From Halogranum gelatinilyticum (lineage in GTDB: Archaea > Halobacteriota > Halobacteria > Halobacteriales > Haloferacaceae), in the NCBI RefSeq assembly GCF_900103715.1, contig NZ_FNHL01000001.1:248001-312000 (forward strand): a stretch of DNA of 64,000 nucleotides, written 5' to 3'. This document shows, one piece after another, positions 39,502-46,523 of this stretch. The notes under the pieces are model-generated. The model did not search any database and had not been told where the DNA came from. It saw nothing but the letters and a program-made list of their open reading frames with translations. Numbering within the stretch: the stretch's first letter is position 1; the number at the start of each line of letters is the position of its first letter. Position numbers and translations under genes: made by a program.

Positions 39502-39863
39502 GACGCCCGCGCGGACCCTACGTGCGAATCCGTGGGAACTGACTCTCGGGAACTGTTCTCGCGGATCAACTTTTTCGCCGAATCCGGACGAACTTCCTCG
39601 TCAGTGGCACCGCTGGCCGGGTGCGGCAAGACGAGCCGCGACGAGCAGCGTCGTCTGAACTCGCTTGTTCCCCGTGCATCACGGTGGATACAACGGTCGT
39701 CTCAGAGGTCCAGACGGGTCGTCACAGTGACCACCTCCGGGCGAAGAAAGCGAAGCGTGGAACAGTCGCTAGAACGCCGATGCGTAACTCACAGCGAGTA
39801 TACCAAATGGGACCGCCGAAGGCTCGCTGCGCTCGCCTTCGTGGATCCATTTTGCTTCGCAAA
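39502..39863. other. Non-coding region upstream of the tRNA-Pro 3' copy, with hairpins
   Basis: No credible gene. Two short perfect stems are seen: CGAAGGC (39817-39823) with GCCTTCG (39835-39841), and TTTTGC (39850-39855) with GCAAAA (39859-39864). A shorter tRNA-Pro-like 3' fragment (TGGGACCGCC) is at 39808-39817. The region looks like accumulated remnants beside an integration target. Confidence 0.45.
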
Positions 39864-39888
39864 AGTGGGACCGCCCGGATGTTGAACC
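39864..39888 (-). repeat. Partial copy of the tRNA-Pro 3' end
   Basis: The plus strand reads AGTGGGACCGCCCGGAT(G)TTGAACC. It equals positions 40001-40024 of the tRNA-Pro gene except for one extra G. The copy holds the acceptor and T-arm portions only and lies 137 nt from the intact gene. An inverted T-arm copy (GTTTCAAATCCG, 39915-39926) follows. Confidence 0.8.
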
Positions 39889-39940
39889 ACGGTCGCTCCT
39901 TTCAGTCGCTCCCTGTTTCAAATCCGCCGTCGTCCAGTCA

Positions 39941-39997
39941 CCACGAACTCGACAGCCTCGCACACGCTACGCGGTGCTCGGCGGTGTGAGTTCGTGG
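39941..39997. repeat. Inverted repeat between tRNA-Pro copy and tRNA-Pro
   Basis: CCACGAACTC (39941-39950) and GAGTTCGTGG (39988-39997) are perfect 10-bp arms. The right arm contains GTGAGTTCGTG, which recurs 5 nt from the tRNA-His 3' end at 46434-46444. Confidence 0.75.
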
Positions 39998-40002
39998 AGA
40001 AG

Positions 40003-40075
40003 TGGGACCGCCCGGATTTGAACCGGGGTCACGGGCACCCAAGGCCCGAAGTATACCAGGCTAACCCACGGTCCC
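40003..40075 (-). tRNA. tRNA-Pro (anticodon UGG)
   Basis: Read from 40075 the gene folds as a 73-nt tRNA. The acceptor GGGACCG pairs with CGGTCCC and is followed by discriminator A. The anticodon stem is CGGGC/GCCCG around loop CTTGGGT (anticodon TGG). The T-arm is CCCGG-TTCAAAT-CCGGG. CCA is not encoded, and RNase Z plus CCA addition would finish it. A possible TATA box (minus strand TGTAAAG reversed, CTTTACA) is centred about 30 nt upstream. Confidence 0.95.
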
Positions 40076-46194: not shown

Positions 46195-46235
46195 GCTCTC
46201 AGTCAAGACTTCTCCTCACTTGATGTCCGTTCGCG

Positions 46236-46255
46236 GTGCTCGCTGACGCGAGCAC
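46236..46255. repeat. Perfect hairpin with TGAC loop
   Basis: GTGCTCGC-TGAC-GCGAGCAC, 8-bp stem, 41 nt after the protease stop and 26 nt before the tRNA-His 3' copy. Confidence 0.85.
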
Positions 46256-46280
46256 ACGCTCACTGAGAAACGTTCGGAAG

Positions 46281-46305
46281 AAGGTCCAGGTGCGAGAATC
46301 GAACC
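46281..46305 (-). repeat. Partial copy of the tRNA-His 3' end
   Basis: The plus strand reads AAGGTCCAGGTGCGAGAATC then GAACC. It is identical to 46447-46471 at the tRNA-His 3' end for 25 nt and lies 166 nt away. An inverted T-arm copy (GCTTCGATTCTC) follows at 46352-46363. Confidence 0.88.
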
Positions 46306-46400
46306 TCCGAGAAACGGTCGCTCACTTTCGTTCGCTGCGCACGACCTCCCTGCTTCGATTCTCTCCGTCGAACGCTTCACTCATCACGTCGTTACTCGCG

Positions 46401-46420
46401 ACGCTCACTGACGTGAGCGT
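46401..46420. repeat. Perfect hairpin with TGAC loop
   Basis: ACGCTCAC-TGAC-GTGAGCGT, an 8-bp stem with the same TGAC loop as the hairpin at 46236-46255; it lies 30 nt from the tRNA-His 3' end. Confidence 0.85.
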
Positions 46421-46449
46421 ACGCTCGTGGGGAGTGAGTTCGTGAAAAG

Positions 46450-46523
46450 GTCCAGGTGCGAGAATCGAACCCGCGTCTCAGCCTCCACAAGGCTGAAGGA
46501 TGGTCCACTACCCCAACCCGGAC
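46450..46523 (-). tRNA. tRNA-His (anticodon GUG)
   Basis: Read from 46523 the 74-nt gene starts with an encoded G(-1) that can pair with C73, the tRNA-His identity feature. The acceptor TCCGGGT pairs with ACCTGGA (one G-U). The anticodon stem is CAGCC/GGCTG around loop TTGTGGA (anticodon GTG). The T-arm is CGGG-TTCGATT-CTCG. CCA is not encoded. A CGTATTTGA box is centred about 29 nt upstream. Confidence 0.94.

Follow-up and report, generated by a model that had tools for sequence, protein, structure and literature searches.

Many tRNA genes of Halobacteria are followed, on the same strand, by a short unit of common layout that ends in a copy of the 3' end of the tRNA it adjoins and that carries, ahead of this copy, an inverted T-arm which likewise matches the local gene. 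The hairpin formed by these two arms shows covariation, units of this kind occur throughout the class and are gained and lost as modules, and a parallel arrangement stands behind tRNA genes of Escherichia coli. From these observations we regard it as reasonably, if not strongly, probable that the units are tRNA trailer modules, composed of a first hairpin (HP1), a second hairpin (HP2) and an acceptor tail, which represent the haloarchaeal counterpart of the bacterial RtT RNA and which duplicate and take on the end of the local tRNA. No description of such haloarchaeal units was found in the open-access literature.

Local tRNA ends copied downstream of tRNA genes

The analysis started from a 64-kb window, the whole stretch of DNA under study, in the 3.77-Mb genome of the haloarchaeon Halogranum gelatinilyticum. 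The word of 25 nt AAGGTCCAGGTGCGAGAATCGAACC, in which the tRNA-His 3' end is repeated, is present at 46281-46305 and 46447-46471, 166 nt apart. Direct reading likewise confirms an inverted T-arm between the repeats (46352-46363) and two 8-bp hairpins with TGAC loops (46236-46255 and 46401-46420), all as reported in an earlier sequence-only reading of this DNA. The view that the TGAC-loop hairpins define the family was, by comparison, overstated, as they are features of trailer hairpins; that at 46401-46420 forms the inner portion of the tRNA-His unit's own trailer hairpin (HP1), and the one at 46236-46255 is part of an older trailer that remains past the copy. The 11-nt word GTGAGTTCGTG is indeed shared by the tRNA-His and tRNA-Pro units (46434-46444 and 39986-39996), and it too is a trailer-hairpin feature rather than a defining part. 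The HP2 covariance model matches the tRNA-Pro unit at 39874-39928 of the window (G000:C1:287874-287928). The parts of both units are given in Table 1.

Table 1. Components of the two units in the window, in window coordinates
Feature	Position	Strand	Basis
tRNA-His(GTG) gene	46449..46522	-	ARAGORN, Rfam RF00005
tRNA-His T-loop-to-discriminator segment	46450-46469	-	ARAGORN
tRNA-His unit: HP1 (with the inner TGAC-loop hairpin, 46401-46420) and spacer	46366..46449	-	RNA fold z -4.1
tRNA-His unit: inverted T-arm (complement of T-loop and 3' T-stem), HP2 5' arm	46354..46365	-	11/12 nt complementary to local arm
tRNA-His unit: HP2 core, long variant GCAGGGAGGTCG...GTGAGCGACCG...GGAGG	46304..46353	-	Fold including inverted arm and copy, z -2.9
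tRNA-His unit: direct 3'-end copy, HP2 3' arm and acceptor tail	46284..46303	-	20/20 nt
Older trailer hairpin past the tRNA-His copy	46204..46283	-	Homologue directly behind tRNA-His in H. rubrum (G001)
tRNA-Pro(TGG) gene, the window's second unit-bearing tRNA	40002..40075	-	ARAGORN
tRNA-Pro unit: HP1 and spacer	39929..40001	-	Sequence reading
tRNA-Pro unit: inverted T-arm	39917..39928	-	10/12 nt
tRNA-Pro unit: direct 3'-end copy, imperfect	39866..39886	-	17/20 nt, one insertion

The tRNA-His and tRNA-Pro repeats are instances of a genome-wide pattern and can no longer be treated as two curiosities. A scan of 3' flanks found that 24 of the 51 tRNA genes have their own last 20 nt (T-loop to discriminator) copied 80-215 nt downstream, a count that goes far beyond the third example in the genome for which the sequence-only reading had asked; it takes in copies matching the local tRNA at 16 or more of these 20 nt, with further decayed cases falling outside it. 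For nearly all copies the local tRNA is the best match among 42 distinct tRNA ends, and the upstream flanks of tRNA genes are at background level except where a neighboring tRNA intervenes. Since copies match the local tRNA across the genome, the tRNA-His repeat is not due to chance. Moreover, all 18 matches of the HP2 covariance model in this genome sit directly behind a tRNA on the same strand; an apparent exception to this linkage, at C2:619552, was rejected when it proved to adjoin a tRNA-Pro(CGG) gene missed by the Rfam search.

Local matching was assessed by permuting tRNA labels over 86 units from three Halogranum genomes. The last 13 nt of the copy, which are variable among tRNAs, match the local tRNA at 12.1 positions as opposed to 5.9 with permuted labels (maximum 6.9). 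The inverted arm follows the local T-arm as well: its summed score of 699 was reached in 0 of 20,000 permutations, which gave 598 +/- 7.4. At 604 positions that distinguish same-anticodon tRNAs between species, the copy has the base of its own species in 569. The existence of a family whose copied end tracks the local tRNA is thus strongly supported.

Anatomy and structure of the unit

Reading outward from the tRNA, each unit consists of HP1, a short spacer, HP2, and a 3' tail formed by the local acceptor strand. HP1 has the appearance of an ordinary tRNA trailer hairpin, and similar hairpins also occur behind tRNAs that lack units. HP2 begins with a stretch complementary to the T-loop and 3' T-stem of the local tRNA, continues through a core (typically CAGGGAGCGA...GAGCGACCGTGG; long-core variants, including that of tRNA-His, exist), and closes with the direct copy, the acceptor part of which forms the tail beyond the hairpin. 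The units were also considered as tRNA minihelices, a reading that was set aside after those read by eye had no acceptor 5' strand ahead of the inverted arm.

An alignment of 47 short HP2 sequences yields 13 pairs, eight of them with double changes, and 96.2% of cells are paired, a figure that leans towards pairing in the arms because the sequences were picked for a recognizable inverted arm. The core pairs are free of this selection; one of them is G-C in 36 sequences and A-U in 10, and the tandem G.A positions beside it are invariant. Double-change cells number 25 in the alignment versus 5.2 in shuffles. Predicted loops of the 2x2 GA/GA type number 143 among 166 short HP2 hairpins and 177 among 214 HP1 stretches, counts that may be inflated by the G+A-rich sequence common in the H. 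gelatinilyticum genome. The tRNA-sense strand of the units folds better than its complement, beyond what composition accounts for. Mismatch types taken alone were tried as a measure of strand asymmetry and are not decisive, because G.G exceeds C.C as well.

Two further kinds of hairpin were noted. At tRNA-Gly(tcc) (L033, G000:C1:1083562-1083628) the HP2 core is reversed between its arms, as though the hairpin had been inverted. A second class copies only the acceptor end (13-14 nt), which is preceded by an inverted acceptor within a hairpin, for example CCTGACTTGCCCCACG...CGTGGGACTCCGTCAGG; it often comes after an HP2 unit and was seen at Arg(gcg) (L069), Arg(tct) (L031) and Ala (L035) in genome G000, at L173 in G001, and at L283 and L297. 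The hairpin GAAGGC...GCCTTC past the tRNA-Pro unit (window 39806-39865), followed by the short acceptor copy TGGGACCGCC (+ strand), is perhaps a member of this class.

Distribution, turnover and origin of the units

The HP2 covariance model has matches in 49 of 53 sampled Halobacteria, comprising family- and order-level relatives, and none in the roughly 242 genomes taken from the rest of the phylum. When loci were fetched from its matches, 39 of 40 had a tRNA beside HP2, with a local copy nearly always; the stretch taken for the remaining one (L302) holds no tRNA. A search of 84,980 species genomes with the exact HP2 word gave matches in many haloarchaeal genera, adjoined by a tRNA wherever this could be checked, along with scattered, random-looking bacterial matches that have no tRNA.

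Within this range the units turn over. Orthologous tRNAs of the three Halogranum genomes bear from 0 to 3 units each, often different ones, and at His, Ala, Val(tac), Leu(caa) and Ser(tga) the trailer directly behind the tRNA in one species sits behind the copied end in another. The trailer beside tRNA-His in H. rubrum (CTTCTTCCGAACG), for instance, is the older trailer found past the H. gelatinilyticum unit (46204-46283). These shifts correspond to whole units gained or lost exactly at the tRNA end; pairwise comparisons leave the direction unproved, since deletion between repeated ends mimics insertion. At tRNA-Glu of Haloferax the same trailer types occur in differing orders, and at tRNA-Lys(ttt) of genome G269 (L267, G269:C1:2656000-2658200) four identical 111-bp units stand in tandem. 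One copy further on in this Lys array has a tRNA-Arg-like end, an exception to local matching that looks like recombination at the T-loop.

Unit bodies are mostly common to different tRNA species. Across genera, only 23 of 214 best body matches join tRNAs of the same anticodon (permutation mean 10.7), a scarcity that fits units passing between tRNA genes; a purely ancestral lineage for each tRNA was rejected, as same-anticodon matches exceed the permutation mean and are nevertheless far from the rule. Because half of the tRNAs lack units and orthologues differ, any function must be dispensable at a given gene.

The sequence-only reading had taken the family to consist of elements that assume the sequence of the target tRNA. 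That interpretation is partly supported: the tracking of the local end holds, and a mobile element in the strict sense is at most a candidate reading, no enzyme, free form, or virus or plasmid copy having been found. A non-autonomous selfish element that cuts tRNA 3' ends in staggered fashion, duplicates about 20 nt of target so that each copy is local, and draws its enzyme in trans (a Cas1-like or other integrase) would nonetheless explain the sharing of bodies among tRNA species, presence/absence polymorphism with boundaries exactly at the tRNA end, arrays that adjoin the tRNA, and persistence across the class in spite of turnover. Casposons have a target duplication of about 14-15 bp, kilobase cargo and terminal inverted repeats, and some insert at tRNA 3' ends. 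Casposons and CRISPR adaptation (Cas1-type) make a long target duplication, to which the 20-nt local duplication at the units may correspond, and arrays growing beside a fixed leader would resemble unit arrays; no enzyme of this type was linked to the units. Haloarchaeal MITEs are also short, non-coding, hairpin-rich and dispersed; unlike them, the units have neither transposase ends nor genome-wide scatter and are confined to tRNA 3' flanks. Target duplication, however, accounts for the direct copy and leaves unexplained why the inverted arm, too, fits the local tRNA, and recombination between repeated ends could yield all the same gains and losses. The viral contigs, phages and plasmids searched contained no HP2, and neither a link to an integrase nor a gene-bearing long form between the repeats was found. 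We hold the selfish-element explanation to be rather unlikely.

A neutral by-product of replication appears distinctly improbable. Template switching at tRNA genes could duplicate the 3' end in tandem and produce inverted arms on a hairpin template, with neither element nor function involved, and the perfect tandem arrays, the identical trailer starts that flank some units (Glu, Gly) and the inverted core at Gly(tcc) are all in keeping with it; yet the core, which is not derived from tRNA, is conserved and covaries across Halobacteria, and neutral errors do not predict that the layout should recur in E. coli.

Attachment-site scars, the remains of tRNA-integrated viruses or plasmids later deleted, are rejected as very improbable even though tRNA 3' ends are classic haloarchaeal integration targets (PMC3119063) and integrated elements are present at tRNA-Glu in Haloferax, for these elements leave a longer, 47-nt copy without HP2, the units have a single compact anatomy unlike that of random deletions, and the HP2 core lies only beside tRNAs among the matches that could be checked, never away from them or at the far end of an island. 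The partial tRNA duplications of haloarchaeal proviruses and plasmids (e.g. Haloquadratum GI 3) resemble the units in repeating the tRNA 3' end directly downstream of the gene, but their repeats of 22-57 nt lie kilobases apart and are accompanied by an integrase, and no inverted T-arm or conserved hairpin is reported for them (PMC3119063). In one Haloferax genome about 55 kb, probably an integrated element, is inserted at tRNA-Glu with the 47-nt tRNA end copy at its far side (G050:C2:225358-280042), and genome G042 has a 1.9-kb counterpart. A separate locus (L181, G001:C13:159000-166000) packs over a dozen diverged tRNA-like genes into some 4 kb; it has no HP2 units and is perhaps of viral or plasmid origin.

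We favor recombination at the repeated T-loop/acceptor segment combined with selection on the HP2 hairpin. Duplication or recombination at this segment would make and lose units while leaving the tRNA intact and rendering every new copy local, and recombination at the conserved T-loop would move unit bodies between tRNA genes. Target or tandem duplication gives the direct copy, and neither alone gives a local inverted arm, so hairpin-templated correction or selection for pairing must also act. An inverted arm kept as the pairing partner within HP2 would sequester the copied tRNA end so that it does not compete with the genuine one, and the unit RNA would be transcribed and then released through tRNA 3' processing. 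A trans-acting enzyme is a possible agent of unit spread; a role in RNA structure is at least as well supported as a strict mobile element.

A parallel with RtT RNA of Escherichia coli

RtT RNAs (RF00391) are poorly understood, are known from gammaproteobacteria, and correspond at the tyrT locus of E. coli to its 178-bp repeats. Part of the local-end pattern in E. coli may already be described in the work of Bosl and Kersten (1991). RtT is reported to be set free as tRNA transcripts are processed and to influence the stringent response (PMC4986893), and two downstream RNA 3' ends, not tied to a unit, have been recorded for tRNA-Pro of H. volcanii (PMC7237163).

In a comparison with selected tRNA operons of E. 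coli K-12, the local tRNA 3' end was found to terminate the units behind tyrT/tyrV, argQ/argZ/argV and six lys tRNA genes. The inverted arm that closes the hairpin is clear for the tyr and arg units and shorter for lys. RF00391 recognizes the tyr and lys units, and the sequence records consulted annotate no RNA feature at the local-end units of the lys and arg loci (L312, L309, L310). Matches to the RtT region occupy 1 to 10 places per E. coli genome (median 3).

The bacterial and haloarchaeal units are alike in following tRNA genes on the same strand, in ending with the local tRNA 3' end, in having an inverted arm that pairs with this copy, in a tandem-G.A hairpin (GA-GC-GCCA-GC-GA and GA-AC-GTCA-GT-GA), in forming tandem arrays, and in occurring at several tRNA species (tyr, arg and lys in E. 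coli). They differ in that E. coli RtT has a branched hairpin, another core (GGATAACGTTGC...GGCCCGAAGGGC) and a later start of the copy (ATCC...CCA), and in that the set in haloarchaea is far larger and extends across the class. The HP2 model gave no match to E. coli RtT (its best score was 9.5 bits, E 0.23), and RF00391 in turn matched neither the H. gelatinilyticum genome nor the loci L267, L068 and L073; as a control, E. coli was its sole match among 14 control genomes. As the layouts are alike but the models match in neither direction, we do not assign the haloarchaeal units to RtT. A broader proposal, that bacteria and archaea share a class of tRNA-tail modules with a common tandem-G.A hairpin, which copy themselves between tRNAs through a dedicated process that adapts the direct end as well as the inverted arm to the local tRNA, and that RtT and the haloarchaeal units are two branches of it, is one we consider doubtful.

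For haloarchaeal tRNA-end repeats, an attachment site of a virus or plasmid should not be the default reading. An arrangement of the RtT kind, taken until now as a peculiarity of unclear use confined to E. coli and related bacteria, has a widespread counterpart in archaea. This larger and more diverse set in a second domain provides hundreds of natural variants from which the structure, the rules of spread and the partner of such units may be studied, and in Haloferax, a model haloarchaeon, genetics is available for testing them.
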